The position numbers and the translations under genes were made by a program. Below, piece by piece: positions 9,849-37,039 of a DNA stretch of 64,000 nucleotides. This stretch comes from Ulota crispa. Its lineage: Eukaryota > Streptophyta > Bryopsida > Orthotrichales > Orthotrichaceae. The notes under the pieces are model-generated. The model did not search any database. It had not been told where the DNA came from and saw only the letters and a list, made by a program, of their open reading frames with translations. Location of the stretch: the NCBI GenBank assembly GCA_963920765.1, contig OY987243.1, positions 34,781,060 through 34,845,059 on the forward strand, in the 5' to 3' direction. Position 1 is the stretch's first letter. Every line of letters begins with the position of its first letter.

Positions 9849-10490
9849 TTGCAATGTCGCTTCATTAGTCCTAGAATCCTAGTTAATTAGTCAGTAGACT
9901 TCATTTGTGACCACTTGATCAATTGTCCAATTGAAGCAATAGCCATATCTTAAGTTGCTTCTTTTTATAATATGTGCTTCATTATTTATTAATCAAGACA
10001 ATTTTTTCAACATACCTGCTCATTTGGAGGGGCTGCATTGAGGATGCCCTATTAATACAATGTAGAGTTGCTGACACCAAAGGAATAACCAATTCATGTC
10101 AACAGACTTTGAAGTAGTTGGTTGTGCTGATGTAAGCAATTATATTAGAGAACACGGCCTTCTCTAGGCATTTGGGGAAGCACATCAAAAACCAAATTGG
10201 TATTATATGAGCAGTTTGGATAACTTATAAGTAGTATTCCATAACACAACTCAATACCAGGCAAAACAAGAAAAATATTAATGAATTGTGTACATGGAGA
10301 AATATTATGTATTTAAGCTGTCATATGTAGTTTAAAGTCAGGAAAAGAGTATCACTCACAAAATTAAACTACCACAGCAGTCCACAAAATAAACACTAAC
10401 ATTTTGTAGAAGCAAGTATGGCTACTTTAGCTAAGCCAATAAAGACAAAATTTGAAGTTGAGTTATTTCTTACTACCACTAAATCATAGC
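9849..10490. other. Spacer between two convergent remnants
   Basis: This holds the 3' ends of the transposase remnant (plus) and of the RING-like gene (minus). It is AT-rich and I see no third gene and no terminal repeats in it. Confidence 0.35.
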
Positions 10491-10493
10491 CGC

Positions 10494-12523
10494 CTAGGCT
10501 TCTTCCATCACTAAATCTGAGATGTCTTGCGCCACTGCCGCATCGATGACAGAGACTTCTTCAACCACCGCTGCAGAGGCTTCAAGCGCTGCTACAGCAC
10601 TTGTTGTAGCGACCTCTGCCATCATTACTGAAGTCGGGTCCATTGCTGGAGCGGGTTTCAAGGCCAAATGTACAACCCGAGGAGGGGGGGCAAATTCATC
10701 AATGCTATTCACTATTGAAGAGCGTTCAATCACTGCTCTTGATGCTTCTAGCACTGCTGCCGCACCAATGGCAGCAACCTGTGCCATCACTACTAAAGAT
10801 GAGCTCTTTGCTACTACAAATTTATTGGCCTCTTCATGCATCTTTAACTCTAATACCTCTTCCACCCTTGCCCTTGCACCTACTCAGTTGAGGGGCTTCT
10901 TCCAGCCCATGGCATCCATCCCTGCAATGCAGGCAGCAACAGTAGCACTAAGCACTTCATCACTATTTGCTTTGTATCCCCATTGGGCCCGCCACAGAGC
11001 ACTAAGCACGTCATTGCAAAAAGGGCAACGATAATCGTTTGACAATGCCACCTGGAACATACAAGCAGGATGCAGCAAGCATCCATAGGGAAAACATACG
11101 ACAACATTTTGCACCCAAAAACGACCACAAAGCACACACAAAACGTCTACTTCAAATTTCACTTGTTCCACGCTGGTCACAAGAAGGCGGGTCAAGACGT
11201 GCTTTGGCTGAATGCTATTGCTCTCTAAAACAATCTCATCAATTCACCACTGATCACCCCCACCTCATCTTGCATCTCCTTAGTGGTTCTCCTAAAAAGT
11301 ACAATGCGGTTTGAAAGAACTGCCATTTGATTATGAACATCTAAGGCGCCTTGTGTGATCTTGCTAGCCATAAGTATCTTAGACTACAACTCTTCTTCTA
11401 TTTTGGTGTGCTCCTTGGATGTCAGTCTAGGATGCCTCTTTGAGGCGCGTGTATTCACCATGGCTTCCCAATTTGACTCATCTGACCTTTCCAAGTCAAG
11501 CTTCTTGGAGGCCAGAACTTCAACCTTGCTCTCTGCATCATGTAAGTTCCTAATTCCATTAAGAAGCTGCTGCTCCAACTTCCTCTGCTTTTCCTTCAAC
11601 GGCTGGCCTCTGCCTAGGTCAAGTACTGTTGTCGGGGGCGGCAGAGCAATTTCTATGCATGGAATAGTCTGGGATCAACCAGCACTGCATTGCTGCCGCA
11701 CAAGTTTAGAACCACTGCTAGGGTCTGCACATACCTCCCTATGTGGAGGTGGCAAACTCTGTCTTAAACTATGTGAGGGATCTAAATGCCGGCTGGGAAA
11801 TGCTGAAGGCTTGATGGGCAAATTTGCATGCCTTAACTGTGCTACAGCTGACTCTTTCTCTGCATATGCTAATTGTAAGTAGTATTGAAAGAGACAAATC
11901 ATCTCATGAATCTGCTCTTGCAGACATGGAGGAGTCAATTTTTGAGGATTAGCCGACAGGTTCTACAAGCGCTTCTTTGCCAATTCTGCCGCATGCTCAG
12001 CCCAAGTGACCTTTGTAGAGCGTTGGAAAAACAAAACCAGACCTCAAATGAAAGCTGTCCCAAATTCTCCATTGTCTAGTTGTGTGCTGCCATACACTCT
12101 TAGATACATGTATAATGCATCCTTGGCTGCAGCACGATCTATCATCAGCTTCATGGAGTGTCAATTTCCTTGCTTATTCAATGGATATGTAGCAACAAGA
12201 TCGGACATTGGCACTCCGTAGTCTTCTTTCACCAAACTGTCAAAAGGAATACCACCATCACACAGGCCACCAACAGCTTTGAAGAAAGCGTTGTTATATT
12301 GAGCCTTGTTTGAATCCAATAGAAAAGGAGTCCTCCTGATCAACTCAGATGCAATCGTGTGTAGTAGATTGTTCAAGTTGAAAGGATCACGCCATATTGT
12401 AAAGTGGTTCAATTCCATCTCATCTAGCACCCGCATTTCCTTCATTGGCGGATCATACTAAAATTCATCGTCATAGCCCTCTGATGTTGACTCTGACAAT
12501 CGGCGTTTTTTCCTCTGGTTCAT
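10494..12523 (-). pseudogene. RING-like coiled-coil protein, copy A (broken)
   Basis: Starts at ATG 12523 with 'MNQRKKRRLSES', a basic nuclear-localisation-like start. Next comes a conserved N-terminal domain with 'YNNAFFKAVGGLCDGG' (about 12300), then 'LRVYG', 'VTWAEHAAELAKKRL' and 'NPQKL' (12100-11950), then a proline-rich stretch and a coiled coil ('KEKQRKLEQQLLNGIRNL', 11599-11500). A RING-like finger follows (CVLC, 14 residues, C-FPYG-C-LLH-PAC, then CPFC; about 11140-11045), and last an Ala/Val-rich helical tail. The same order occurs in copies B and C, which shows they are one family. Stops occur after 'YDDEF', after the first domain and in the linker, and the frame shifts between 11384 and 11195. 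Function is unknown. RING fingers commonly act in ubiquitin ligases, but several zinc ligands deviate here. Being convergent with the transposase, it may be that element's second gene. Confidence 0.55.
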
Positions 12524-12529
12524 TGCGAC

Positions 12530-12670
12530 AGTAGTGAATCTAGAACAACAATGCAAAAGCAAAGAACCCAAACAACAAATGCAACACTAGTGAACCCAAA
12601 ACAACATATGTGACAGCAGTGAATCTAAAACAATAAATGTGACAGCAATGAACCCAATACAATAACAATA
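12530..12670. repeat. Imperfect tandem repeat, about 34 bp
   Basis: Several diverged copies of a unit like GTGAACCCAAAACAACAAATGYGACAGCA lie just upstream of the start codon of copy A. They may belong to its promoter or leader. Confidence 0.45.
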
Positions 12671-13009
12671 AATTGCTCTAAAATTAACACTAACTAAGTG
12701 ATGCACACAAACGTAACTAAGATAAGGGTGAAGGAGGAATGCTACAACCGGCTGCAAGGTCCATAAGTACAATGTAGAATAAGTTCAAGCTTTGGGCTGT
12801 GGCCGTTGCTGAAAGCAAAAGCACTGACGCTTACATTACAATGTATGCGTTCAAACATAATAAGCTACTAGTAACACTTGTACAAAAGGCATAATGTCAC
12901 TTCATCCCAATTAATAATCTGATATTTACATTACCAAAGTATCTTATCAAATTTCATAGCTTAATGTCCATTCTAAAATGTTCAAAGTAAGGTTTTTAAA
13001 AATAAATCA

Positions 13010-13190
13010 AAGGTCATACATTCATCCTAGTTTAATTTCACGCATTCATCCTGATTTCAATTTCATACATTTATCCTGGTTTCAATTTCACACATTCATC
13101 CTATCTTCAATTTCACACATTCACATCCTAGTTTAAATTTCACACATTCATCTTATCTTCAATTTCACACATTCATCCTAATTTAAATTC
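13010..13190. repeat. Tandem repeat, about 26 bp
   Basis: About six to seven imperfect copies of a unit built on CAATTTCACACATTCATCCT. It has no coding potential. Confidence 0.6.
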
Positions 13191-14100
13191 CATCATATTC
13201 ATAAAGCAAATATTCAATAAAATAATGCCTTTTCAGTCATTTTTTAAGACTAACCTCTAAATGTCTTGATCCACCATGAAATGTTAAACTTTTCCTATTT
13301 TAGCTAAATTTAGCCTTCTAAATTTTGTTCAAAGAAATTTTTATTATTTTAATTAGCTGTAGTCATAGATTGTAATTCATTGTGTGAAATTTTGATTTTT
13401 TTTTGAAAGATCAGTGTGAATGTTATCATTTTGGTTGCAAAAAATGAACATAAATAAGAAAAATTGTAATATACCCCAATTTTTTAATATTAAATCCTTA
13501 ATTTATTCAATAATTTTAGAAAGACTCTACAAACAAACAAACTTTGAAAGAATGTGTATTTAAAGAAGATCCACTAATAATAGCTAAATTTATCACTGGA
13601 ATTTGCCATTGTTTTGGGTCTAATCTAAAATGAACAAAATGAAATGTATTTGAATGTGAAATAAAATAGTTAGTTTTATAAGTTGAAGGTCTTGGTCATC
13701 AAGTCTACGTACTTTGAGACTCAAGGATGGCTTGAAAGCCATACAAAGTCCACAAATATTCTTAACAGCTTAGGGAATCTTCAAGAAATTATTTCCCTCC
13801 ATTTTACCAATGTGCCCTTCTTGGTGCATTGCCTTTCTACCCTAAGTTTTAAACATATAATTCTAAATTCAAGCATTTAATCCTAAATAGTACTACAACT
13901 TAATACTAAAGAGTGACCTCAATTTACTTGAACTTAAAAATGCATACGGAAGGTGATTTATGCTCAACTCTTTGTTTTGAACTTGTTACCTTTAGAGCAA
14001 CATTAAAAGCACTTATCATTCCTTGTTGACAAACAACCAAATTAAGATCATTACAAATATATGTATATACTTATGGAGGGTTACTCTTTGACTATTAATA
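13191..14100. other. AT-rich non-genic stretch
   Basis: I recognise no gene. Parts (13250-13460) weakly resemble the outer portion of the inverted repeat arm at 24945, but the match is too diverged to be firm. Confidence 0.3.
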
Positions 14101-14104
14101 TTAG

Positions 14105-14372
14105 ATTTAAGCATGTTATTTGTTAAATTGGGAAAAACATAGGTACCATTTTGTATTCCACCTGAAACCCAAAAAGTTACTTTAAACCAGATTTAAAGGT
14201 ACTAAATTCAGTTTGAGCTATTAAGATTTTTTCTTTTGCAAATTCCTCTTCTTAGGTCAGGACACATGTATAAAAAAAAACGCTCTGAGGTGGAATTTGG
14301 GTGATCACTTCAATTCTTGAAAGTCCCAAAATGTACTGTTTTTCCCAATTTAACGAACAACGCGTTATTTAA
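14105..14372. mobile_element. Foldback MITE, about 265 bp
   Basis: The ends are inverted copies: GTTAAATTGGGAAAAACA on the left and its complement TGTTTTTCCCAATTTAAC on the right, with similarity continuing outwards and inwards (GGTACCATTTTG versus CAAAATGTACTG). There is no coding capacity. The exact borders and target duplication could not be fixed. Confidence 0.55.
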
Positions 14373-15551
14373 TGTTCAAATTTATGAGGTGGACGTTACT
14401 ATATGGACTTATGCATTGCAAAAAGTTTGTTTATAAATCTCGAAAATTCCTTATAGTCCCTTGATGTATGCGTTCATCTATTTGTTTGCCTAATTTGAAT
14501 GTATAATGTTTAGGGGTTAAATTTTTTTCAGTGGCTTTACTCAACTTCAACGTTGATGGCTCTATTGATGCTCAAAATTCATTGGATGACTTTTTAAGTT
14601 ATTTGTAATTTGAATGTGAGTGTACTTCTGCCATCTTTACATCTCGTAAGTCACATGCCATTTTATTTTTCAAATGGTATTAAAATGATGATGTTGATTT
14701 TACAATAGGTTCAAAGTCCATTTTGGCACAATATATTCAAAAGTGTATTTTAATGTATAGACTAATATAAAATATAATTCTTGTTGTTACTATTAGGACA
14801 AAGTATTTTTAGGGTAGCTTTGATAAAAACTGCCATATATATGTAGTATGTCTTTTAAACCTTGTAATTGATTGAGATTAAAATAAGAAAGAGCACTTTT
14901 GTAATTGCGTTTTTAAAAGATCAAGTTGTTTGATTTATGAATTAGTTTTATAGGTAGTCACCAATAATATGGAGGCCCTTTGACAAGAATCAGTTAGCAT
15001 GATTGATTGGACTTAGACATTTGAATTTCATTTCTATTGTTATTGTAGAAATTAACTAAAATATTTCTAAATTCATCCATATTTGGAAGCGACAACACTT
15101 TTCAATCATGTTTATACCATTTTTCATCTAAATTTGGCTACTTCATCCACATTGACATTTGAGAGTAGAAAATCAATGGCAAAAAAAGAGTAGTTTCTTT
15201 TGATGAAAGTGGACATTCATTTTGAAATGGTGCAACAACTGGCCATTTTCAAATGGTGCCAAAATTTTAATAAAGGCTGTTGAAGACCCCCACTTGCCCT
15301 AAATTGCCCCCCCCCTCCAAAAGGGGCAAGCTTTGCTGTACCTCAAGTGCTCCAACTTCAATGTTGTTAATGCTTGAGTTCTAGTGATGATGCAGCAACT
15401 TCAATGACGATAATGTTTCAGTAAGCTTCGTAAGTTTGTGATGATTCTTTAACTTGTTGCATGACCACTACATCCATGACATAACCACTACACTCATGAC
15501 AATACAAATTGACTATATCTAGTGCGGTTCAAGTGTGCAACATGGCCGTGC

Positions 15552-16506
15552 CTTGTACAATGGCCTTGAATAAAGTTTGTTGCCATTTGTTTTTTCATTT
15601 ACAGGTCATGTCATGTTATGTTTTAAAATTGAGGTCAATTGGGCTTTTTTGATCTTACATTTTTCATATCTCATTTTTGCCCCCTGCCAACCAAGCATAC
15701 CAAAATTTAACCTCAAAGAACTAATATCTAAAATTTGACAAATTTATTTGTGTCACAAATCAAAATTTTACATGGCTTTACAAGAAAATTGATTGAAAAA
15801 CATTGATGATGAGTTTTGGAGATTTTATTGCATGGATGTATAGGTAACATCTATATGCACATCCATATGCACATATTCCATGCTAAAAAAAACCCTTTAA
15901 GTAAAAAGAAATTGATCTTCATAAGGTTTAGTGTGACATATGATATGTCCAAATTTTGTAAAATAGATCTTTTCTAATGATAATCAAATTTTGCTATTTT
16001 ACTCATACATTATGATTAAGTTTGTAACTTTGAACATGTTGTTGTGTTTATTCACTGAAAAGCTAACTACAAATTAAAAATATCTATTTTACAAAATTTG
16101 GACATATCATATGTCACACTAAACCTTATGAAGATCAATTTCTTTGTACCTAAGGGATTTTTTTAGCATGAAATGTGAGCATATGGATGTGCGTATGGAT
16201 GTTACCTATACATCCATGCAATCAAATCTCCAAAACTCATCATCAATGTTTTTCAATCAATTTTCTTGTAAAGCCATGTAAAATCTTGATTTGTGACACA
16301 AATAAATTTGTCAAGTTTTAGAGTTTAATTTTTTGACGTTGAATTTTGGTATGCTTGGTTGACATTGGGGCAAGAATGAGCTGATATAAAAATGCAAGAT
16401 CAAAACAGCCCAATCAGTGACCTCAATTTCAAAACATAAGAGTGACATGACCTGTAAGTGAAAATACAACGGGCGATAAACTTTATTCAACGGTACCGTG
16501 TACAAG
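15552..16506. repeat. Long inverted repeat, two arms of about 425 bp
   Basis: The left arm (15552-15972) matches the reverse complement of the right arm (16077-16506) along its whole length with scattered differences, around a spacer of about 104 bp. Shared blocks include TTGATCTTCATAAGGTTTAG and CATTGATGATGAGTTTTGGA. I see no protein in it. A foldback transposon or an inverted duplication would explain it, and a transcript would form a long hairpin. Confidence 0.8.
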
Positions 16507-16974
16507 CCACTAGCCCACTATTCACTTGACTGTGATATTACTTTCTTGGCTCTTGCTGCATCATACGTGCTTTAATCATAACATTTGATTTGGGAAATCC
16601 TTAGTAGCAGCTCACGGCATTACTAACACAGAAGATTTTTATATGTTCACGGGTGGAGTATTCACATTGCCTCTGATAGCCAAAACTTGAAGTTTGGACA
16701 TTGCTTCTATGGCCGAAAGGAAATGAAGCATGGCAGAAGTAAAAAATTACATTTACTGACTAAAATTTTAAAAGCTTGCAGCATAACACAACTCTAATTA
16801 AGAAGTATTTTCAAAGTGCATCAATTTGCATAGCAATTCTCTTCAATATTCAAAATAAAATGTACAAAAGTGATTTTCCTTCAGTAGACGTAGCCCAAAA
16901 ATGCAATGGATTCTTAAAATGGCTAGTGTTTAAATTAAACCACCAAAAACAATGCGACTGTTTCACTGTCTTAG

Positions 16975-17218
16975 GGTATTCCCTAGGTTCACACATGTAA
17001 ACCAAAAAAGAAATGTAAAATTTGAATATTTCAATGGTTTAAAATTTTTTAGCAAGTAGGTTCACAATAGTGAAACTAAAAAAAATTGCCAAATTAATAT
17101 TTTGCCTAGCTTAACATGGTTTTGCCTAGGTTCACAATAATGAATTAAAAAAAAAATGGACTGGTTTGTGTGCCTTCCTATAGTTTTGTCTAGGTTCACA
17201 ATGGTGGCCTAATAGAAA
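16975..17218. repeat. Diverged tandem repeat, left of palindrome
   Basis: Three to four imperfect units of about 60-70 bp each contain a core like GCCTAGGTTCACAATAGTGAA. The same units in the same orientation resume at 18868 on the far side of the palindrome, so the palindrome interrupts one array. Confidence 0.6.
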
Positions 17219-18861
17219 GGAAAAATATTGAAAATGACCTTGACAAATTGCCATATTACAAAAAAATAATCTCAACATTCTTGAAACATCTGAAATACTC
17301 ATAACAATCTACATGCGATGCAATTGCGCCCCCATATGTTGATATGCTTCTTGCAAATCTTGTCTTGCAGGCAAAATGAGGGCATTACATTGGAGAAGTC
17401 TAAAAAAATGCCACGTGCCGCTTTCATAATGCACTACCATGTCCAACCTAACACCCAATCCAATTAAATGGCACAAGTGTTAATAAATTATTTCAACTTC
17501 AAATTGTGTGTTTCTTCACTAAGTGAACAGAAAACAATATAAACATTTTTACCGTAATTCTAATGTACATTCAAAACCTTTCAATGCTTCTAGTCTTTTA
17601 CCATGGAAAGTCAAATCTAGAAAAAAAACGATCCAGCTTTAGAAAAGGTTTGTATTTGAAAATCTCTTGGTGAGAATTCATGCTTCACTCCTAAAGCCAA
17701 AGTGGCCCTTTGGGGGCCAAGTGGGGTTTTGGGCATGTGGCCTACAACTAAACCAATTTACGTGATTTTCTAAAAAATTTATGGAAGAGTTTAGGGTATT
17801 CACAAATCTGCTTGGGCATCTAATTTTTTCTTCATTCCAACATTTCTTGAAGAAGTTTAGCATGAATTTCTGAAAAATAGAGGAGGGCAGGCAATCACCA
17901 AAAACTTCTTTGCATTTTTGGAAATTAAAATTTGAAGTTGGTTCTTTGGATTTACATATACAATAGAAGCTTTAAATCATTCATTTTTTATTAATGAGAT
18001 GAAAATTATGAGAAATTTTAGTTTGTGGGTATGGACATGATGTTGAGGGACACTGCATCATGTCCGTACCCGCAAACTAAAATTTCTCATAATTTTCATC
18101 TCATTAATAAAAAATGAAAGATTTAAAGCTTCTATTGTATATGTAAATCCAAAGAACCAACTTCAAATTTTAATTTCCAAAAATGCAAAGAAGTTTTTGG
18201 TGATTGCCTGCCCTCCTCTATTTTTCAGAAATTCATGCTAAACTTCTTCAAGAAATGTTGGAATGAAGAAAAAATTAGATGCCCAAGCAGATTTGTGAAT
18301 ACCCTAAACTCTTCCATAAATTTTTTAGAAAATCACGTAAATTGGTTTAGTTGTAGGCCACATGCCCAAAACCCCACTTGGCCGCCCAAGGAGTGAAGCA
18401 TGAATTCTCACCAAGAGATTTTCAAATACAAACCTTTTCTAAAGCTGGATCGTTTTTTTTCTAGATTTGACTTTCCATGGTAAAAGACTAGAAGCATTGA
18501 AAGGTTTTGAATGTACATTAGAATTACGGTAAAAATGTTTATATTGTTTTCTGTTCACTTAGTGAAGAAACACACAATTTGAAGTTGAAATAATTTATTA
18601 ACACTTGTGCCATTTAATTGGATTGGGTGTTAGGTTGGACATGGTAGTGCATTATGAAAGCGGCACGTGGCATTTTTTTAGACTTCTCCAATGTAATGCC
18701 CTCATTTTGCCTGCAAGACAAGATTTGCAAGAAGCATATCAACATATGGGGGCGCAATTGCATCGCATGTAGATTGTTATGAGTATTTCAGATGTTTCAA
18801 GAATGTTGAGATTATTTTTTTGTAATATGGCAGTTTGTCAAGGTCATTTTTAGTATTTTCC
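17219..18861. repeat. 1.6 kb near-perfect palindrome
   Basis: The left arm (17219-18042) and right arm (18056-18861) are inverted copies with very few differences, separated by only 13 bp (TTGAGGGACACTG). One difference is a short segment around 17690-17720 (GGCCCTTTGGGGGCC region) partly missing from the right arm. No conserved protein is encoded; short open frames occur in both arms only because the arms are copies. It sits inside a tandem array. It is either a recent foldback element or an inverted duplication, and is a natural source of long double-stranded RNA if transcribed. Confidence 0.88.
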
Positions 18862-18867
18862 CAAGAA

Positions 18868-19155
18868 AAATGCAACATGAATGTTTGAGTGGCTTAATGT
18901 GGTTTTGCCTAGGTTCACAATAGTGAACCAAAATATTATATAGAACCGTTTAATTGGCTTAACGTGGTTTAGCCTAGATTTACAGTAGTGAATCAAATAA
19001 AATATGAAATTGTTTGAGTAGCTTAATGTGGATAGCCTAGGTTCACGATAGATCAGCACAAAAACTACAAAATAATTCGAGTACATTAATTGGTGGTTTT
19101 GCCTTGGTTTAGAATAGTGAATTAGAAAATTGAAATGCAAATGTTTTAGCAATGA
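18868..19155. repeat. Tandem repeat, about 64 bp unit, right of palindrome
   Basis: Four imperfect units each begin with a TTGAGTGGCTTAATGTGG-like segment and carry CCTAGGTTCACAATAGTGAA-like cores. They are in the same orientation as the units at 16975-17218. Confidence 0.65.
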
Positions 19156-19255
19156 CTAATAGTATTTTAAAGTAATACAAGTAAGGTTAATATTTACAAT
19201 CTGTTGCAACCCTTCAAATGCCCTACTTGATTGGTCTTTAATATAGACTAACCTA

Positions 19256-19270
19256 AGAAAAGAGAGAGAG

Positions 19271-19333
<63 letters not shown>

Positions 19334-19360
19334 TATATGTATATATACATACATATATAT
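19256..19360. repeat. GA/TA microsatellite
   Basis: A short (GA) run passes into about 30 TA dinucleotides, then a degenerate TATG/TACATA stretch. An apparent tyrosine/isoleucine reading frame on the minus strand is an artefact of this repeat. Confidence 0.95.
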
Positions 19361-20248
19361 GGAAGCTCAAAATCATGAGAATCTTAATGTACTAATGAGA
19401 ATTATTATTTAGAATTTACATTATATTGAGATGATCATGGCCTTGACACTTGAATGTCTTGGGGATTTACTCTATGTATGTTTTTAGTACCCCGTGTGGC
19501 AAATGTTTTATTTTTGGGGGGGCTATTCAGCTTGTAGGCAAAAATTAAAGGGTCCTTATGATTACTTAAATTTTTAAAAAAAACCTATTTGATAGAACCC
19601 TATCATTACTTATACTCTTTTCATGTCATTGAAACATATTCTAAGCTATATTTTTTATAAAGCTAAAACACAGTCATTTGGAAAAGGGATTGAGTTGAAA
19701 GGTGAGAAGGATTAGACAAAGAAGTATACAACTTACAAGCCCATTTTCATGGGTTCATAAAGGGTTAAGGTGATTGAAGTGCATTAGTGTCATTTGTACT
19801 ATAACCAAGCAATTTCTCATTTATTGTATGTTTGACCTAGTTGTGCACTCATTTACATGGATTATAATAAATTAAGTCTAGATGATCCAATACATGGCAC
19901 ACTAAATTATATGATAAAATACAAATGACCTTCATTTGGAGGCTATCTAAATAATTTATGAATTATTTATGGCTTTCAAAAGCCTCAATTTTACTTGTAA
20001 GTTTATTACACATTTTATCCAAAATGAATAAAAGGCTATTTGTAGTATGTCACACGTTGTTTCTAAGATGCTATAAGTAATCTCCAAGCTGAATTGCTAT
20101 TTTAATGACCTATTATAAAAATACTCATGTGAAATTATTATACATCTCTAAACATACTTGAGGAAGTAACTATTACAGCTCATTGTGGTTAGAATATCAA
20201 ATTGGTCTTTAAAGATTTAGTTCAAACCAAAATTCAATATAATTGCAC
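19361..20248. other. AT-rich non-genic stretch
   Basis: I see neither genes nor clear repeats here. Confidence 0.3.
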
Positions 20249-20251
20249 AAC

Positions 20252-20445
20252 CACTAGAAGAAAAACAAGGATACATGACTAGGTCACCAAAATTGCCTTG
20301 CAACTGCACAACAACTCCACAACATTTGCACAACTACAATCTAGTCGTGCAGTTATTGTGCAGTTGTTTGTGCAATTGCAAGGCAATTTTGGTGACCTAG
20401 TTGTTGTGATTTGTGGAGTTGCTTATCCTTGTTTTTCTTCTAGTG
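20252..20445. mobile_element. CACTA-type hairpin MITE with AAC target duplication
   Basis: Its termini are perfect 22 bp inverted repeats beginning CACTAGAAGAAAAACAAGG. The flanking trinucleotide is AAC on both sides (20249-20251, 20446-20448). The inner part also folds (AATTGCCTTGCAACTGCACA against its complement). A terminal CACTAG and a 3 bp target duplication place it in the CACTA/EnSpm superfamily. It encodes nothing. Confidence 0.85.
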
Positions 20446-20644
20446 AACCCTTCAAAGCATGTACAAGTTCATATTTGAACTTGTTTTTTATCCCATTGGT
20501 AACAAACTAAAGAAGTAATTGAATGGTTTAGCTATCAATTATTTTACAACCTAATATGCTTTAAAATTTTTGAACTTCAAAATTTTCAAGGCCTTTACCT
20601 ATGCCATTAAGTCTCTAATTGCAATGTAATTTTCCAATGAATGA

Positions 20645-21055
20645 AGAAAATTGCTAAAGCCACACCTAAAATTCCTAATGCCACACCTCCAAGGTGCAAT
20701 TTGAGCATGCAAGATGCAAGAGTTTAATGCTAATATTTTTCTTTAGATCATAATATTTGTTTTGCCTTTATAAGTCTAAGGCTATATTCCAAAAAATGGA
20801 GGTGCCCTTGAAGTTGAAACTCGAAAACGTAAGAATTTCAAATTACTGTAGGCAAAAATACATGAAAAAAATAGCAATGATGCAATATGGTTCAATAGAA
20901 ATTTGTTTTTGTTCTTCTTTCTTTCAAAGAGATGGTAATGCAATGATTTGGGTGAATGATGGACAACTTGAATATAAAAAATTGCATGAAATTCTCAAGT
21001 CACATGCTCACATGTGTGTGGCGTTAGCAATTTTGGGTGTGGCTTCAAGAATTCC
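20645..21055. mobile_element. TIR element, about 410 bp
   Basis: The left end (AAAGCCACACCTAAAATTCC, then AATGCCACAC and GAGCATGC) is matched in reverse complement at the right end (GAAGCCACACCCAAAATTGC, then AACGCCACAC and GAGCATGT). The inverted ends run for roughly 70 bp with mismatches. Superfamily and target duplication are unresolved. Confidence 0.5.
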
Positions 21056-22830
21056 CTAAATTAAATGATAGTCAATTTTATGTCTTTTAACTTTATCAAT
21101 TCTATGTGCACATACTCTCAACCGCAATTATTTTCCTACTTCATATGTCTTCGACTACATTTGAATTTCTTATTAAATGCCAAGTACATAATTAAGTCTT
21201 CTAAAACTTCTATGTACTTGTTCACAGAACTTCACATATTTGGGTGGATGAAAGAGTGCAGCATTTTTTTGTTACTGTAAATTTGAAGTTCAGTTATCTA
21301 TATAATCATTGGCTGCACTTTGCATTAAAACATACTGATGTGCTTTTGTCAAGTAACCAACAATTATACTTAAAGTAACACAACTTTAGTTCAATTTAGT
21401 CACCATTTTGTAACTCTACGTTATTTTTAATATAATTTTGTGTTATATAATGAAAACACGCTAACTAGATCATCTTTCAATTTGTGTGTACTGATAAAAT
21501 TTACTGATGTACTTTACTTTTCCTTCCACTCTAATGGTGGTGTAGTATTGAATTTCACAATAATAATCCCTTTAATTAGGGTTATGTAGTTATTTTATGT
21601 CTATTCATAAAATTATGGTTGATGCTAGCTCCAAGATTTATACCTGATAAAAAGCCCACATTGTTAGCTGAGTAATGTTTAGTGTTTCCAGGGTTTGGAT
21701 GTCCATTTATACTAAGTGTCAATTAATATTGAGTCGTCTCCTTGTAATTGATGAAAATGTGTGTGTATGTGTATATATATATTTTTGAGTCAAGTGACAA
21801 TTAGTTCAAAAGAACAAAACAAAAGTATTGACCACCGGCCAATAGAACTCCAATTGCAAAGAATGTCCATAAGTTGTGGTCTTGTTCGTGCTTAGATAGA
21901 TAGAAATTAAACATTCAACTATAAATACATTGAGTTCTTAGCTCTAATAATTTATATTATAAACCAATTGAAGATCCTCTTGACCAATGGTATTTGAATT
22001 AGAGAGGAAACAAGAAATTGTATAAACTAGTAATTATATAGGAGTACAACAAAATTTTTATCTCCAAATGGTGGAAAAACTCATAAGACAAGAATAAGGC
22101 AATCTATTTCATATTTTATAAAAATTAGTAATACCTTTTAGCAATATAAAACTGAGAATTTGGTAGCTTTTTAATGAAATTAGTAATTTTTGGTGAAATT
22201 TGTCAGTGGAAGCCTAAGAAAGGGGAACATGCTACTTTATAGGTTCTAAACAACTAATGTTTGAGTGGCTAAATTCCAAAATTAGGGTTTAGGGTTTATG
22301 ATTTAGGTTTTAGGATAATTTAATGTGCCCTAGCCTGCTGTTGATACATTGACTTACATTCAGCATTAATCACTGCATTGTTGGTTTTACATCGTCCTTA
22401 ACTGCTGCATGTACTTGGCTATCATCTGTCACTACATTAGTTACTAAGCTCTAGCTTGTACTCAGCAAAGGGTCCATGTCAAATTACAGTCGTTTCACAA
22501 GGCTTACAAGGTCACCCTCAGCCTGCCTACTTACGGCAATATAAAATTGCATGTACTATCAGTGTCATCTGCCTAGTATTTAGTTTATTAGTGAGCTTGG
22601 ACTCTTTGAAAGCTAGATATTGTTGTTTCTCTCGCCATCAGCCATCTTGGTCTCCTTGCTTCCACTAGTTGCCGTGAGCTTGCATTGCTTTTAGTAGTCG
22701 TTGTGGGCTTCCATGGCTTTTATTGCTCTAGACTTGTCCTCCATTTAGTAGTTTTTTTTCAGTACCTTGTCTTTCTCTCAGTTTTTTAATCAGCTTGAAC
22801 CGCTAGTCAGCAGCTTGTACTTGTTAGTTG
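21056..22830. other. Non-genic stretch upstream of copy B
   Basis: AT-rich, with telomere-like patches (TAGGGTTTAGGGTTTATG near 22283). The last 400 bp is less AT-rich and may include the promoter and leader of copy B. I recognise no coding exon. Confidence 0.3.
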
Positions 22831-22835
22831 TCACC

Positions 22836-24579
22836 ATGGTGCATCCCTTGCTGGAGGCAAAGAGTAAGCAGTTGAAGCAGAAGTCTATGGTGCATGCTAG
22901 CCCTTCAGCGCAAAAGCAAGCAAAGGCAGTACATCGTAGAGATTTGAACTCTAGAGAAAGAAGCAAATCCGTTGCCAGAGCTTCTGGATATTGATCTTGC
23001 TAAAATCGCAAGTGCTTATGAAGTGGAGAACTCAGAGTTTGATACAGCATTTGACCTCACTTACATTCCAGAGGCGTTGCGCAATCGTATGCTTGCGGCA
23101 ATTCCTTTGCTTTTGCGACGCGATGCCAAGTATGATGATGCATTTTCTTGGGAGAAGGTGGGGCTATGCGATGCGTGGCCAATAGTGGATGAGGTTCTAA
23201 AGGTGTACCCCTTCATTCTAGAGTCTGACATCAAAGAGATATGGAGGTCAAGGACGCATCCAAACCGCTTCAAGATCGCCCAATGTACAAATAAGGAGCA
23301 AGCGCGGACTTTTTCCCAGCACAATTACCGAGTGTATGGCCACCACCCCGACAATGCATACTTTGCCATGCGCTTTTTGAAGGCTGCCTTTGCCTTGTTT
23401 GTGCATGGCAAGGATGTAAACTGGGTTGCAAAAGCCCAAGGGCGTCGTAGTAAGAGCCTCGCTAGTGCCTCGAAGAATCCAAAGAAACTTGGACCTATTG
23501 TGTTGCATCGACAGGTAGAGGGTTTGTGTGAGATCATTGCCCATTTGGCAATCGGAATGCCATCGCACCAAAGACTAAGCCGCACTGTTGAAGCAGCAAC
23601 AACAGAAGTGGATGCTACAAAGGCGTCCAAGGCTACCGCAGAGGAGGCACTTTGAGCAATTCAAATAAAGCACGCCAATGCAAAGGAGGTCATCAATGCA
23701 CTCTCATATGAAGAGTATGCAACCCTGGAGTCTAAAAGCAATGCAACAAGTTAGGAGCAAAAACGGCTCTTTTGTGAAGGAACATCAAGCGAGTACAAAG
23801 CGTAAGCTGAATTGGCGAAGGCTCTTTCGAGCAAGCTAGCAGCAGTAATGGAGGAACAGATGATGGCGCGTGCAACAATTTCCAGTCTTGAGCACGGGGC
23901 TCTTGCTGAAGCCTCTGCAGATCATGACAAGGCCATTGCAGACCTTGCCACCGCAAAGGTGGCCCTCGTGAAGGCAAAGGAAGACAGTTTGATCTTGCGC
24001 CCTTGCCGAGTGTTTGTGTATCCAGTTGGCCAATTTGTGCCAGCAATTGAGTTTGGGGTGCGTGAACTCTGCCCCATTTGCTACTAAGGATTTGTAGCAA
24101 AAGCTGCAATCTTTGGTTCATGCGGTTGTCTCTCCCACAACACATGTGTGGCGGAGATGATCAACCTCAACAAACAGGTATGTCCCATGTGCACTTGTAA
24201 TCTTGATCCAGCGTAGGTGGCACAATGGGATGGCAAATTGGACACGAATCAAGAGAGAGAAGTAGAAGTCACCATCAAGAAGCTAAAGGATATTGCTGTG
24301 GAGGGGGCTAATGATGCAAAGAAGGCAAATGTTGTTGGCTACGACTTTGCATTACAAATCAAACCCAAAGATTTAGAGTTTGATTTCAATGCCGTTGGAG
24401 GAGATATCATTGTGCTACCAATGTTGGATCATGTTAGATTCTTTGCTGAAGCAGGCAGCTCCACAGAAGAAGTTAACATTACAGCTGCAACAGTGGGGCT
24501 TGCTCCCGTGATTAAGTTACCTATTCCATTGACAATGGCGCTAAGTGATGAGTTTTGCTACCACCGCGAAGTAGACTGA
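22836..24579 (+). pseudogene. RING-like coiled-coil protein, copy B (broken)
   Basis: Begins 'MVHPLLEAKSKQLKQKSM' at 22836. A one-base frameshift near 22980 is needed to enter the main frame, which then runs to 24579 with stops at 23653, 23752, 23803, 24085 and 24214. The N-terminal domain carries 'IPEALRNRMLAAIPLLL', 'YDDAFSWEKVGLCDAWP', 'VLKVYPFI', 'NYRVYGHHPDNAYF' and 'FVHGKDVNWVAKAQG'. A coiled coil follows (about 23590-23990). The RING-like finger reads CPICY, then C-G-C-L-S-H-NTC, then VCPMC (24070-24200), followed by 'VAQWDGKLDTNQEREVEV'. Copies A and C share every block. Two of the stops are TAG/TAA where Gln fits, and one is TAG where copy C has TGG, so C-to-T or G-to-A decay is plausible. 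Biochemical role unknown. Confidence 0.6.
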
Positions 24580-24944
24580 ATTGCATTTTGCTAGCATTTT
24601 ATCTAGGTCTTGAGTGACTTGAGCATTTTTGCACCTAAATTAGTGCTTTAATCCTAAAGCAGCTTATAGACTTAATTTTTGGCCAACTTTGGTGAAGGCA
24701 TTATTGGCTCATCCGCAGATTAGTATTATTGTGCTTGAGATGCTCATGGCAAGTAGCATGCAAAGGTTTAATATTGTTCAGCGTTGTGGCTGAGACCTTT
24801 TTTGTAATGCTATTGCACTTCACTATAACTCTATAAGTATAGAATTTGTAAATAAAATATTAAGCTTTTTTGAAATTTTGTGGTGATCTAGAAAATGTTG
24901 TGCATGTTGAATCCAATGGCGTTTGAAATAATGAATTGGACTTA
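24580..24944. other. 3' flank of copy B, shared with copy C
   Basis: The stretch 24840-24940 (GAAAATGTTGTGCATG... then CAATGGCGTTTGAA) is matched after copy C at 29850-29940, so the duplication of the gene included its 3' flank. There is no separate gene. Confidence 0.5.
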
Positions 24945-25650
24945 ACCCCTAAGGGACTTGATCCATTTTGAAATGGTCAATCTTCATATCTAAGTTAAAT
25001 TTTGCCTTTGAAAGTGTGTTCAAACAAAAAAAATTATATTTGTATTGCTTAAAACTATGAATGGTATATCACAGCAAAAAAATGTCAATTTGTTTCATTA
25101 AAAAATGTAATTTTTATTAAAAGAAATTCAAAAAATGAACATAAACAAGTTAGAATAGCTAAAGAGATCCCCATTATTTGATATTTTTTCAAGAAGTGCA
25201 AGCAGCATTAAATAATAGTGAGTAAAAAATTCAATTAGTTATTTATTTTTGGGCACCCAAAACAGCCACAACATAGATTTCAAAGTGAAATTTGACAGTC
25301 ACACCAAGTTGAACCTCATATTTAATTAACATGTAAAAGTTTGAATTTTTTTTGTTGGCAGACACATTCATTTAATATTTATGTTATTTTTTTTAATAAA
25401 TTTGATGAAATGTATGAATGATTGTGATATATTAAAACTAACTATGGAAATGAAATAATATCAGTTGGATTATATGTTAAAAAAAAAGCTGCAATTTGTA
25501 CTATAAATGAATAGTAGAATGAGAAACATAGTTTTGTAGTTTAAATTTAAAATAAATTTAAAGAGTAGAAAATATGAATGAAAAACACACCATATTGTGT
25601 TATTTGGATTCTAAAACTTGGAGCTTTCAATGGTTGTAATGCTTTCAAGT
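24945..25650 (+). repeat. Left arm of a distant 0.7 kb inverted repeat
   Basis: Matches the reverse complement of 31821-32520 along its whole length. Shared blocks include TTGATCCATTTTGAAATGGT at the outer end and GGATTCTAAAACTTGGAGCT at the inner end, with many small differences between them. The pair encloses the satellite, copy C and the 31 kb minisatellite. Confidence 0.75.
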
Positions 25651-27385
25651 CTTTGCTTCTATTAAAAACATATCTATAATCCCTAAATTGTAACCATTAT
25701 TAAATGATTTGGTCTAATCTATCCAAATTCAGATATGCCTCTTTGCTTTTTAAAGCTGGCTTTATGTACTTGTGGCTTATACTTGTTGATTAGATTAATA
25801 CAATCTAATCTAATATTTAATTATCTCTTTGTTTCCTTTCAAAACATAGCTACCCAAACCCTAAACCCTAAACCATTACTATTTGATTTGGTCTAATCTA
25901 TCCAATTTAGATTTGCCTTGTTGATTTCTTTTAAAAGGCTAGCTCAACATACTCATGTCATACAACAATAATTATTTGGATTAGTACAATCTATCCAAAT
26001 TTAGATTTGCCTCTTTGCTTTTTAAAGGCAGCTCTAAGTACATGTGGCTTATACTTAGTAATTGGATTAATTTAGTCTAATGTAATTTAAGTTTGCCTCT
26101 TCCCTTTAGAAACATGACTTTGCAAACTCCAAACACTCAACCATTATTAAATGACTTGGTCTAATCTATCCAAATTCAGATATGCTTCTTTGCTTTTTAA
26201 AGTTGGTTGTATGTACTTGTGGCTTATACATGTTGATTGGATCAATACAATCTAATCTAATATTTAACTGCCTCTTTGCTTCCTTTCAAAACATAGCTAC
26301 CCAAACCCTAAACCCTAAACCATCTCTATTTGATTTGGTCTACTCTATCCAATTTAGATTTGCCTTGTTGATTTCTTTTAAAAGGCTAGCTCTACATACT
26401 CATGTCATACAACAATAATTATTTGGATTGGTCTAATCTATCCAAATTTAGATTTGATTATTTGCTTTTTAAAGCTGGCTCTATGTGCTTGTGGCTTATA
26501 CATGTTGATTGGATTAATATAATCTAGTCAAGTTTTTAATTGCCTCTTTGCTTCCTTTCAAAACATAACTACCTAATCCCTAATTCCTAAACCTTCACTA
26601 TTTGATTTGGTCTAATCTATCCAAATTTAGATTTTCTTGTTGATTTCTTTTGAAAGGCTAACTCTACATATGCATGTCACATAACAATATTTATTTGGAT
26701 TAGTATGATCTATCCAAATTTAGATTTGTCTCTTTGCTTTTTAAAGTTGGCTGTATGTACTTGTGGCTTATACATGTCATTTGGATCAATATAATATAAT
26801 CTAATTTTTAATTGCCTCTTTGCCTCCTTTCAAAACATAGCTACCAGCCAAACCCTAAATCCTAAACCAATCTACTATTTGATTTGGTCAAATCTATCCA
26901 AACTTAGATTTGCTTGTTGATTTCTTTTGATAGGCTAGCTCTACATACACATGTCATATAATAGTAATTATTTGGATTAGTATAATCTATCCAAATTCAA
27001 ATATGCCCTCTTTGTTTTTTAAAGCTAGCTCTATATACATGTGGCTTATCCTTGTTATTTGGATTAATTTTGTCTAATGTAATTTAAGTTTGCCTCTTTT
27101 TGTCCATTAAAAGCATAGCTCTACAAAGCCTAAATCCTAAGCCATTATTAATTGGATTGGTCTAATATATCCAAGTTTAGATTTGACTCTTTGCTTCCAT
27201 TAAAAACATAGCTTTACATACTTATGTTATATAACCATTATTAATTGAATTGGTATAATATATCTAAATTTGGATTTGTGTCGTTGTATTTTAAAGTAGG
27301 CTTGATGTACCTATGGCTTGTAGTTGTTAGTTGCATTAGTATAATCTAATGTAGCTTAGATTTGCCTTCACAAAACAATGAAATG
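25640..27385. repeat. Higher-order satellite, about 90 bp monomer, 270 bp unit
   Basis: The recurring monomer contains a TTGGATTAGTCTAATCTATC-like head, CCAAATTTAGATTTGCC, then a CTTTTTAAAGCTGGCT-like tail. Three monomer types alternate: one with GTGGCTTATAC, one with CAAAACATAGCTACCCAAAC, one with GGCTAGCTCTACATACTC. The GTGGCTTATAC type recurs at about 25743, 26013, 26188, 26461, 26727, 27012 and 27290, i.e. usually every 265-285 bp with one short interval. Two units carry plant telomere-like AAACCCTAAACCCTAAACC (25855, 26303). No coding capacity. Confidence 0.8.
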
Positions 27386-27649
27386 ATTGTAATAGTTAAT
27401 ACACATTTGGATTGTTGAAGCAAAATGTCAAATTTTCATATTAATGGCGTTGTTTTAGCTTAAGAGGTCTTAATGAGTTAGTACTCAATAGTGAGTAGCC
27501 GCAACCATTACTTATCTACTAATTTAGGCAGTACGCTATATCTTACTCTTGATTCCAATTAAAGCACCAGTCCCAACGTACGTTGTGCAAAATCGTAGTT
27601 GCAGCTGAGTGTGCTTCACACACGAGTTGTCTGTTGGTCTCACACAAGT

Positions 27650-27863
27650 TGTTGTGTTGTGTTCTTGCCCTCAATTGCTTTTGCCTCTCTGTACAATCTT
27701 CCACCTCTTGATTTCTTGAGTATTGGTACCTTTTGAGGTTCTTTTTTTTAAAATTTGTTGTGTTGTGTTCTTGCCTTTAGTTGCTTTTGCTTGTTTGCGT
27801 AGTCTTCCACCTCTTGTTTTCTTGAGTATTGGTACCTTCTGAGGTTCTGTTTTCTAAAATTTG
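27650..27863 (+). repeat. Tandem duplication of about 107 bp upstream of copy C
   Basis: Two adjacent copies share GTTGTGTTGTGTTCTTGCC, then TTCCACCTCTTG and TCTTGAGTATTGGTACCTT. The second ends about 20 bp before the start codon of copy C, so the promoter or leader is duplicated. Confidence 0.8.
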
Positions 27864-27885
27864 TAGCTTGTACTTGTTAGGAACA

Positions 27886-29448
27886 ATGCATCCAAAGCTA
27901 GAGGCAGTGTAGAAGCAAAAGCAAAGGAAGCAGAAAGTCAGAGGGGGCAAGCCCCCTCTCCCTAAAAAGCACTGCAAGGGGGTCGCGATTTTAGATTCAG
28001 ATTCTAGCAATGAAAATGCAGAAGCAGGTCTAGCTCTAGAGCACTGTGAATTAGAATCTCATGAACCTGCTATTGAAGAGCCTGCAAGTGTGTATGATGT
28101 AGGAAAGTTGGAGTTCAATGCACCATTTGACTTGTCGGGTATTCCAGCGGGCTTGCGCGAGAGCATGCTTGCGGCAACACCTGTTCTTCAAGGCCGCAAT
28201 GCGGAATATGACAATGCATTCTTCCGTGATAAGGTGGGCCTCTGCAACCAGGGACCACTAGTAGATGACGTTGCGAAGGTGTACCCCGTGATTTAGGAGG
28301 ACAACATTAAGAAGATCTAGAAGCAAGGAGGGCAGCTAAACAAATTTGAGATTGCAAATTGCATAGACAAGGAGCAAGTCCGGATTTTTTTGCAGCACAA
28401 CTTCCTAGTTTATGGATACAGCCCAGACAATGCATATTTTCCAATGCAATTCTTGAAGGCTGCTTTTGCAACATTTGTGCATGGCAACAATGTTAATTGG
28501 GTTGCAGAAGCACAAGGATGTTGTGCAAAGCGCCTTGCTTCTCCTACAAGGAATCCTTGAAAACTCGGACCTATTGCATTGCGTTGACAGATGGAGTGTT
28601 TGTGAGAGTTGATGGCAAAAAAGGCAACTAGAAGCCCGGCGCGTCGGAGGGTGCCTTGAAATGTTATAGCAGTAGAGAGAGAAGTGGATGTTGCAAAGGC
28701 GGCCGAGGCCTCCGCGGCAAACGCACTTGAAGCACTGAAGAAGAAGAGTGCGGATGCGATGGGGGTGATGGATGCAAGCTCAAATGAAGATATGGCAAAG
28801 CTTGAATCGGAGCTGAACGCAGTTACTTTGGAGCAGAAATGGCTATTTTGCACAGGGAAGCTGACAGAGTATAAGGTGCATGATGAAGTAGTGCAAAATG
28901 TTTCACAAAAGCTAACAAACACGCAGGAGGCACAGATGTTGGCGCGTGCAATTGTAAGGGAGCTTCAGAAAGGGCCCCTCAATGAAGCGATAAGTGATCA
29001 CAACCAGACCAAGGAGGAGGTTGCCGTCGCAGAGGCAGCCCTCTTGAAGGCAAAGCAAGAAAACATGGTTTTGCATCTGCGCTCATTTTTTGAATTCCCT
29101 ATTGGCAAATCTGTATTGGTGATTGAATTCATTGTAAATGAAGTTTGCCCATTTTGCTACAAAGGGTTCATAGCAAAAGCAGCAGTCTTGGATTCATGTG
29201 GTTATCTCTTCCACAACACATGTGTAGGAGAGATGATTGACTCCAATAATGAATTTTGCAATATGTACTCTTCCTATCTTGATTTGGCGTGGGTGGCACA
29301 ATGGAATGGCAAACTTGACAAGTATCAGGAGAGAGAAGCTGAAGTCATTGTTGATAAGCTGAAGAATATTGGTGCAATTGGAGCTAATGTTGCAGCCACG
29401 GCGGATGCACGTAAATCCAAACCCGTTTGCCTCAACTTCCAATTTTAA
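27886..29448 (+). pseudogene. RING-like coiled-coil protein, copy C (broken)
   Basis: Starts ATG 27886 ('MHPKLEAV', like copy B) and keeps one reading frame throughout with no frameshift, but carries stops at 27910, 28294, 28318, 28558, 28585, 28603 and 28657. The N-terminal domain has 'IPAGLRESMLAATPVL', 'YDNAFFRDKVGLCNQG', 'VAKVYPVI', 'VYGYSPDNAYF' and 'FVHGNNVNWVAEAQG'. The region from 28660 to 29448 is open: an Ala-rich coiled coil, then the finger VCPFCYKGF...SCGYLFHNTCVGEM (29145-29240), and 'VAQWNGKLDKYQEREAEV'. The second zinc-binding Cys pair seen as CPMC in copy B is CNMY here. The 254-codon open 3' half could still be translated from an internal ATG at 28684, though I have no evidence that it is. 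The copy is enclosed by the inverted arms at 24945 and 31821. Confidence 0.6.
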
Positions 29449-31160
29449 GCCAATGAAGGTGATCTAGTCGTGTCGCCTGATGCAGTGTCCCCTGCTGCAG
29501 CAAGCAACGTACCCCATGGAAAAAACATTTGCTATAGAGCATGCATTGGTAGAGAGTACATACTAGTGTCATCCAATTTGATTGAACTAAGTCTGAGCAT
29601 GTTACTCCAACAACAGTGCTGAAAACTATTGCTAGAGTTTGTTGAATGCAACCTCAACTAAGATTCATTTCTTCCTTGCGTCAGCATCCTCATTTGTCTT
29701 AGTTCTATAGTATGTGTCTTTGCTTGAATGTTCTTGCAGACATAATGTTGATCTTCACTCTTGTTACAGACTTTATTATTGGCTCCTAAACCTACTTCAT
29801 TGTAAATGTACACTATGGTGCACTTCATTGTGAATATGCACGTTGCAAATAAAAGATTGAAGAATTTTTGAAATTTTTTATCTTCTCTAGAAAATAGTAT
29901 GCATGCTAAATGCAATGGCGTTTGAATTATATGAATTGCTATAAAAGTGAAATTTCAATAAGCAATTGAAGTTCATGTGGGGACTACTTAAGCACTTGTA
30001 CGCATGTTGTTCATAAAGCATGAAAAATTTCAATATGACAACATGTATTTCATTCAAAATAAAATGTTAATAGGCTAGAGCAGGACTGCAATGTAGCTTG
30101 GTGCATATTTAGAAACTTAAAAGAAGGTTGCAAATATATTCCTTTGTGCAACAAACAAAAATTATTATGTGGTATGTAGTATTCTGTAAAAAGGACCCTA
30201 ACTTAAAAACCCAGGGTTTATTAGTTAGTTTCACATTCTTGAACATATCATAAAGTCTCTAAAATTCTAATACCCCCTTTAATCCCTCAATTCCAAAGAT
30301 GCTCTAGCATTTTAGTATGAAACCAAGGTGTTACAGAAATTTGAAACTCTAAAAAGAAAGACATTTGGGGGGAAAGAGGAAAAAGGTGGGAAATGGAGAG
30401 AAATGGAGGATATAAAAGGAAAGTAAAGAGAGACAGAAGGTGTATAAAACAAATAGCAGAAAGAAAGAACACACTAAACAAGAGAAATTGGACAAAACCT
30501 AGATAAGGCACACTTGTTACAACATTGTGGTTAATACCTAAGTTTCAAATTTTCATTCAATTTTGTTCAATCTCTTTCGATTTTGTTGATTTAAAGTTTG
30601 CTAAAACTTTAATGTTTACAATTTTTTTTTTGTTGATTTTGGTTGTACTACAACCTTAATAAGTTTTTTTTGTACTAAGGTAGCAACACTTATAACTGTC
30701 AAACTAAGGGTTTTGAACATGATGATTATTAAGAAAAATCTAGCAAATTATAGGTTCCTATTAGCAAGACTAATGTGATGAGTTTGCACTTTCAAATGTA
30801 TTATTTGGATAATGTGAGAATAAGTTGTGGATTTTTATAAAGCGGACTACAATTGCACCTAATACCAACACTATGGTTTCATGTTCACATGTTGTACATC
30901 CTTGTACTTACATCTATTCACTTCCACAGATTTGCAAAGATTTTTGAGGTGGTGTTTATGGAGACAGTCGCACTTACTTGGTGTTGCTACCTTATACTAT
31001 CATATTAGCTCAAAAAATTTGTTGAATATTGTGTGTTTTTGGAGATCTAAGCAACAACCGTAAGAAATCTATATTAAAATGAACTATTGCCAGCTACCAC
31101 ACACTGTTCACTATTATAACTTTTTTTGTGTTTTTATTTTGTAAATTAAATTTTGAAATG
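29449..31160. other. 3' flank of copy C and AT-rich spacer
   Basis: The part near 29960-30010 (TTCATGTGGGGACTACTTAA) is matched at 32540-32580 beyond the right inverted arm. A purine-rich patch lies at 30345-30450. I see no gene. Confidence 0.35.
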
Positions 31161-31164
31161 CAAA

Positions 31165-31790: not shown

Positions 31791-31820
31791 TCTTTCGCAA
31801 TTTTACATTTTTCTAAATTT

Positions 31821-32520: not shown

Positions 32521-32646
32521 CAATTTCTAAAGAGCAATCATAATTCATGTGGGGTCTGCTTAAGCACATGTACATATGCTTCACACTGTCTAGGCAAGTG
32601 TTATCAAAATTTTCATTTTAATTCTCATTATACAACAATAACTAAA

Positions 32647-37030: not shown

Positions 37031-37039
37031 CAAACAATT

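Follow-up and report, generated by a model that had tools for sequence, protein, structure and literature searches.

Three broken RING-like genes of Ulota crispa lie in one degenerate large DNA transposon that may be related to the RAG1/CACTA group

A stretch of 64,000 nucleotides from Ulota crispa (GenBank assembly GCA_963920765.1, contig OY987243.1), hereafter called the window and equivalent to C2:34781060-34845059 of the 274.8-Mb genome, contains three loci with a common order of blocks: an N-terminal domain (N-domain), a linker, a RING-like finger and a tail opening with AQW. All three loci, described in an earlier note as decayed copies of one family and suggested there to have been carried and multiplied by a transposon, are present as claimed, and each is broken by stops or frame changes, with no intact gene among the three. 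Copy 1 (10494..12523, minus strand) retains its N-domain at 12457-12164 and, weakly, at 11962-11678, its linker at 11674-11387, and its RING and AQW tail at 11243-10887, the RING lying at approximately 11138-11013. Copy 2 (22836..24579, plus strand) has the N-domain in one open frame at 22948-23652, a linker at 23806-24063, a RING that runs across a frame break at 24064-24213, and the AQW tail from 24217. Copy 3 (27886..29448, plus strand), which has lost its last zinc-binding CxxC, carries the N-domain at 27913-28293 and 28321-28557 and the linker, RING and AQW tail at 28660-29445, with the RING at approximately 29143-29259. As set out below, all three copies are enclosed by a single dead, degenerate large DNA transposon, designated E1.

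The motifs attributed to the copies hold in part. The AQW tail stands in all three, although the proposed AQW-x-GK is variously spelled AQWDGK, AQWNGK and AQWGYK; the RING-like finger is likewise found in all three, but its final CxxC has become CNMY in copy 3; and in place of the proposed YDNAFF, copy 2 has YDDAFS and copy 1 has YNNAFF. The suggested coiled coil is supported by a heptad test in copy 1 (3/300 shuffles reaching the score), is marginal in copy 2 (20/300) and fails in copy 3 (116/300); over five family members, the test was positive in three. Copies 2 and 3 align at the DNA level (28084-29394 with 23008-24318; 67.9% over 1319 columns, E 7e-123). Copy 1 has no DNA-level match to either and was linked to them via single-sequence protein searches, in which the copy 2 N-domain found copy 1 (E 4.5e-8, 26% identity) and the copy 1 RING found copy 2 (E 7.5e-5) and copy 3 (E 5.1e-4). 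Judged by these comparisons, copies 2 and 3 are the closer paralogues, and copy 1 is a distinct paralogue that adjoins a transposase-like gene.

The N-domain is approximately 180 residues long and, in keeping with the earlier note, resembled no known family in the searches made: no significant match was obtained in Pfam, NCBIfam or PDB sequences, and structure comparison with a predicted model (predicted local distance difference test, pLDDT, 69.7) gave no trustworthy match. In the best-preserved family member, L071 (C1:7766001-7768800), the N-domain and linker share one 421-residue frame, past one stop of which follow a RING with all eight ligands and then the AQW tail. Across the 15 rows of alignment A4, the ligand pattern is C-x2-C, CG[CHY]-x2-H-x2-C and CPxC, in the order and spacing of an eight-zinc-ligand RING; position 4 is mostly C, not H, and single ligands have gone in decayed rows. 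When the profile of A4 was compared with PDB, 70 sequences were returned at E up to 1, the best being the RCHY1 RING (E 5.8e-4), and the 60 of these 70 matches that were listed were mostly RING proteins, with at least seven that were not (three lectins, three RAF-1 and MTF2). Ligand pattern and profile matches to solved RING domains of E3 ubiquitin ligases thus both point to a RING identity.

E1 occupies 6203..37502 of the window (31.3 kb with nested insertions), its left end matches the terminal repeats of sister elements, and it is colinear with two of these, E2 and E3. The left terminal inverted repeat, CATTAGAAGATATTTGAGGTCTGGGAGAGGCC (6203..6234, plus strand), was matched by eye to that of E2 and sits at the place expected from E2 colinearity; it also served as one of the queries in the scoring of terminal repeats. 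The right repeat, CATTAAAAACAATTTGGAGTCTAGAAGAAGCC (37471..37502, minus strand), is eroded and scores 13 against shuffle maxima of 10-14, but is only 6 bp away from its predicted position, obtained by adding a 2181-bp nested repeat to the E2 spacing. Between these ends, the interrupted transposase begins with an N-terminal conserved part and a helical part (6541..7239, plus strand; tnpN profile E 6.4e-37 for 6541-6909, the profile having taken in this row during iteration). It continues with a catalytic part, also interrupted, that bears KLDEVE (first D), ADMKT (second D) and CIYC (7815..9253, plus strand; iterated profile E 4e-21 to 3e-93), and it ends in a C-terminal part with H-x4-H and E (EHVLMKH...QGMEK; 9192..9845, plus strand), placed by profile and motif alignment. 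A second conserved element gene, gene2, is broken and lies at 33982..34628 on the minus strand (iterated profile E 5.4e-31 and 1.2e-21), with a DNA match of 33725-34451 to E2 (E 3e-25); no Pfam match was found for the gene2 pieces scanned.

The genome yielded seven elements of 27-45 kb with both ends and with transposase and N-domain/RING matches in between: E1 itself, E2 (C2:17883156-17921897), E3 (C6:9282817-9320506), E4 (C8:18466030-18511285), E5 (C6:18801669-18836510), E13 (C6:11617235-11646806) and E15 (C7:20070586-20097927). Five of these long elements (E1-E5) were fetched, E4 minus approximately 3.2 kb near its right end. Their termini are of the form CATTAGA..TCTAATG, starting CATTAGARR, and the pattern built from them has 75 genome matches, compared with 0 for the reversed control. 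The two ends of E2 are alike at 30/31 bases, and those of E3 score 17 and 16 (shuffle maxima 10-14). Termini of the 5'-CA..TG-3' kind prevail, with CATTAG at 20 of the 25 long-family ends listed; the deviant ends read TATTAG (E13R, E2L and L064), CATTAA (E1R) and AGTTAG (E3L). E4 and E5 are colinear over approximately 34 kb (76-91%, mostly 86-91%) and their flanks are unrelated. In addition, E4 sits in a common repeat, and its joined flanks match other copies of that repeat, of which four were fetched (L066-L069). The empty site, ..TTAAA|CTAGATTC.., is uninterrupted at the junction in L068 and differs by one or a few bases in L066, L067 and L069, so E4 (CATTAG..CTAATG) entered at the boundary of TTAAA and CTAG and left no duplication. 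Likewise, no target-site duplication was seen by eye in nine terminal-repeat pairs of the long family. At C3:16853318-16881393, long-family terminal repeats bound 28 kb in which neither a transposase nor a RING match was listed.

Profile searches of stop-free stretches, in which the iterated profiles behind the E-values contain the very rows that they score, recovered N-domain genes, gene2 and the transposase in each of the five long elements fetched, with three N-domain genes in each of E1, E4 and E5 and two in each of E2 and E3. One N-domain gene of E5 has a KE-rich part, and no RING was placed in that gene. The transposase adjoins the RING1 gene in E1, E2 and E3. The sister elements fetched hold two or three N-domain paralogues each, and the three copies of the window did not jump but reside as genes in one 31-kb element; the link to a transposon stands, through terminal repeats, the empty site and recurrent co-occurrence with a transposase-like gene, but multiplication of scattered copies over 19 kb does not. 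In a DNA comparison of the N-domain family that included genes of E2 and E3, copy 2 was the outlier (66.6-68.2% to the others), copy 3 was 74% identical to the E2 and E3 genes, and the latter two were 79.8% identical to each other.

The association recurs across the genome, where all counts are lower bounds. The copy 2 N-domain has 27 matches, three of them in the window, which represent 27 places; two RING queries gave 14 and 27 match rows, merged into 30 places (11 of 41 rows were second pieces or the same place); and the transposase open reading frame beside copy 1 (8600-9253) gave 50 rows, merged into 39 places (11 second pieces dropped). A transposase place lies within 40 kb of 24/27 N-domain places and 27/30 RING places. 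After clustering, 16 of the 21 N-domain/RING loci, the window's own included, lie within 40 kb of a transposase match, compared with a mean of 0.24 and a maximum of 3 in 2000 trials of random placement; in the reverse direction, 16 of the 39 transposase places have the N-domain/RING family nearby.

The genes also bear traces of past constraint. Divergence by codon position followed the order third, first, second in 6/6 pairs among four RING3-type N-domains (pairs that are not independent), and, between subfamilies, third positions were the most diverged in the N-domains, transposase and gene2, the E1-E2 transposase comparison covering 36 codons. This is as expected of N-domains, transposase and gene2 that were once under purifying selection.

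The transposase itself provides a lead to a wider kinship. Its conserved blocks are KLDEAE and ADMKT..CIYC, followed by H-x4-H..QGMEK in a later exon-like frame. The distance from the second-D position to C-x2-C is 20 in all 11 rows measured, and H-x4-H with E at +20 is seen in all five rows measured of the 10 in alignment A5, the others not covering the stretch or being decayed. C(2)C and H(3-4)H thus fall between the second D and the last E, and the CMCT group is marked by these two motifs and CA..TG termini (PMC12730594). The corresponding residues of RAG1 are D708, C727/C730, H937/H942 and E962, with spacings of 19 from D708 to C727 and 20 from H942 to E962 (PMC4914335). Kinship with the RAG1/CACTA/CMCT group is suggested by this fingerprint and remains only a lead, because no profile matched (no CMCT-type Pfam family at E up to 10 in 13 transposase rows) and the predicted model is unusable; membership in the CMCT clade is withheld because the long family lacks the 2-5 bp target-site duplication of that group.

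Two further finds frame the long family. A compact relative at C5:4961458-4969835 (8.4 kb) contains transposase and gene2 only, has the terminal repeats AGGTCCATTCTCACTTG, with 207 genome matches for the terminal pattern versus 6 for the control, and belongs to a compact family in which 3-bp TTA or TAA duplications flank all 11 repeat pairs examined. Neither N-domain nor RING profiles matched any of three compact-type copies (L029-L031; one complete and two represented by 7-kb stretches). Short non-autonomous copies of the compact family, down to approximately 125 bp, were also observed. The second find is at C1:17.95 Mb, where a stop-free frame of 1202 residues includes the N-domain (profile E 1.1e-23; N-domain versus the L071 member, E 4e-7), in the stretch C1:17950501-17957500 (L070/L077), of which 943 residues and then 259 residues to the stop were read. 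This gene is single-copy, its nine matches being itself and eight places beside a transposase (24-31% identity). Its C-terminal part is coiled-coil-like, nothing exceeded Pfam cut-offs in the 943 residues scanned, no RING or transposase profile matched in the 7 kb fetched around it, and 1.05 Mb separates it from the nearest transposase place. The prospect, raised in the earlier note, that the family is an ordinary host gene free of transposons is therefore borne out in small part, by an N-domain gene that has no RING. Either this gene supplied the N-domain, or it is a fragment of an element that the host has domesticated.

Further features of E1 are shared with its relatives to varying degrees. 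The 3.29-kb segment that holds copy 2 (21424..24716) is missing at the matching place in E3, and no terminal repeats or target duplication were seen at the ends of that segment. Tandem repeats of approximately 272 bp upstream of copy 3 (25650..27367) are present in E2 and E3 too. The 2181-bp nested repeat near the right end (35208..37388) has further copies, one in E2 and two, inverted relative to each other, in E3. Arrays of the 21-22 bp motif GTGATATTA (31173..31785) occur in E2 and E3 as well as genome-wide. The ATGTGATATTAMARAGGT arrays, at 31173-31785 and elsewhere in the genome, include several inverted pairs approximately 500 bp apart and perhaps belong to another repeat family. E1 also contains an inverted self-repeat of 1.66 kb (window 17219-18862; arms 96% identical), and a coding-like stretch (L015:6940-7221 and L027:6574-6891) lies in a 3.6-kb repeat that is common to E3 and E5 and differently placed in each. 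The window additionally holds the plant genes MsrA, B3 and UVB_sens_prot.

Taken together, the copies are probably resident genes of a dead large transposon, near CACTA, Transib and RAG1, that brought its own genes resembling RING E3 ligases. Such an element would encode a DDE-like transposase with the zinc-and-catalytic fingerprint of RAG1 and CACTA, gene2, and two or three N-domain paralogues, each built from an N-domain and a helical linker that in several members is predicted to form a coiled coil; most of these paralogues also have a RING close to the C-terminus. The RING proteins may have served the element as E3 ubiquitin ligases, with the target chosen by the N-domain and linker; the RING would then ubiquitinate the transposition complex of the element itself or else a host factor of chromatin or silencing, and the presence in each element of several paralogues that have diverged would be consistent with an arms race over that target. 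Both the ligase activity and any anti-silencing role are predictions. A further-reaching proposal is put forward only tentatively, as it is unlikely to hold: that these elements form a lineage of giant DNA transposons of plants that has not been described before, is akin to RAG1 ancestors and inserts without target duplication, whose multigene RING E3 set disarmed silencing or controlled the transposase by ubiquitination, and whose N-domain has since been adopted by the host as a single-copy gene. Among the titles and opening abstract lines listed in the literature searched, which included few subscription papers and not Repbase and offers no proof of absence, none described a DNA transposon of plants that carries a RING gene family of its own. 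Plant cut-and-paste transposons rarely exceed 20 kb, and few accessory proteins are known to be kept under selection by a transposon.

Several observations weigh against the preferred explanation. The second D position of the transposase is D in only seven of 11 rows (N in three, G in one), the protein matches no Pfam or PDB family, and its structure model (pLDDT 42.3) is too poor for use. The right end of E1 is weak on sequence alone, and every member scanned falls short of the Pfam RING cut-off (best zf-RING_2, 21.9 versus 27.3 bits). Five of the 21 family loci have no transposase nearby, and one of these five is the uninterrupted host gene with the N-domain. Moreover, E4 and E5 show little codon-position bias in four of five genes (the exception being gene C, 20/157 third versus 10/157 second positions), and their recent history since the split has therefore been mostly decay; the linker-plus-RING of copy 3 versus E3 is also weakly biased (0.312 third, 0.245 second).

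Some of these points favor the improbable alternative that a host gene contributed the N-domain, and perhaps also the RING, as a captured passenger of the kind seen in Pack-MULEs that does nothing for the element. The single-copy 1202-residue frame lacking a RING, the five loci without transposase, the faint selection between E4 and E5, and the three compact copies that neither profile matched would all be accommodated; the neighboring transposase and RING1 genes of E1, E2 and E3, the N-domain genes in every element fetched, and a codon-position bias between subfamilies that indicates N-domains were kept would not. Descent from a host-gene donor and later use by the element are, in any case, mutually compatible. 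An anti-silencing role may instead have been sequence-specific, the RING proteins being recruited by motif arrays in the manner of VANC of VANDAL elements, an idea judged about as improbable as capture of a passenger. VANC targets form tandem repeats, and VANDAL elements likewise encode accessory proteins beside the transposase and have tandem arrays in non-coding parts (PMC5735166); correspondingly, the GTGATATTA motif occurs in non-coding parts of E1, E2 and E3 with 12, 24 and 123 matches inside the elements versus 0, 1 and 1 outside. The motif is not element-specific, however (3114 genome matches versus 15 for the control), E4 and E5 have two and three matches, no DUF1985 appeared among the open reading frames scanned with Pfam, and no domain common to VANC and the proteins described here was found.

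RING proteins are common in large DNA viruses, and remains of an endogenous virus of that kind might account both for elements as large as 27-45 kb and for their multiple RING paralogues. That origin is nevertheless very unlikely: neither the N-domain nor the transposase has a relative among IMG/VR viral contigs (in single-protein scans that reach close relatives only and that covered part of the element open reading frames), and the elements instead show a transposase fingerprint, terminal repeats and, for E4, an empty site. Local tandem duplication of an ordinary plant RING gene without any transposon, to which the likeness of copies 2 and 3 and their 5-kb spacing might have pointed, retains next to no probability and is refuted by the recurrence of the same genes beside the same transposase at 16/21 loci.

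A RAG1/CACTA-like lineage that inserts without target duplication and carries its own RING family would offer a means of studying the use of ubiquitination by transposons, with the compact sister family lacking RING genes and the single N-domain host gene as natural contrasts. The lineage may also represent a further, peripheral branch of the group that gave rise to V(D)J recombination.

Among known systems, the RING sequence pattern resembles that of BRE1, RCHY1 and other RING E3 ligases, although here the N-terminal domain is unmatched and position 4 is mostly C. BRE1 also has a coiled coil ahead of a C-terminal RING. The Burro giant Gypsy-like retrotransposons of planarians are likewise giant mobile elements and are reported to have a RING-finger motif among their extra domains, but are animal long terminal repeat retrotransposons rather than DNA transposons with a RING gene family (PMC6431247). 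Spy elements also insert without duplication, the TWA duplication of PIF/Harbinger resembles that of the compact family, and a two-gene layout is found in most PHIS groups (PMC4482050), whereas the zinc-ligand fingerprint of the present transposase is of another kind; no Pfam match to a PHIS-type transposase or to a Myb/SANT or YqaJ second protein was found in the transposase rows and gene2 pieces scanned. The CMCT clade comprises EnSpm/CACTA, Mirage, Chapaev, Transib/RAG1, Plavaka, ESTA and Lanisha (PMC12730594). The present elements differ from it in lacking Pfam or PDB matches and, in the long family, a target duplication, and in having separate RING genes and a length of 27-45 kb; they resemble it in having the C(2)C and H(3-4)H motifs located between the second D and the last E, in the CA..TG termini of the long family and in the 3-bp duplications of the compact one (PMC12730594). 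Finally, unlike RAG1, the elements carry the RING in separate genes with another N-terminal domain, and no RAG2-like gene was recognized; nevertheless, D-x18-C in RAG1 compares with D-x19-C here, H-x4-H-x19-E is found in both, and RAG1 also possesses a RING (PMC4914335).

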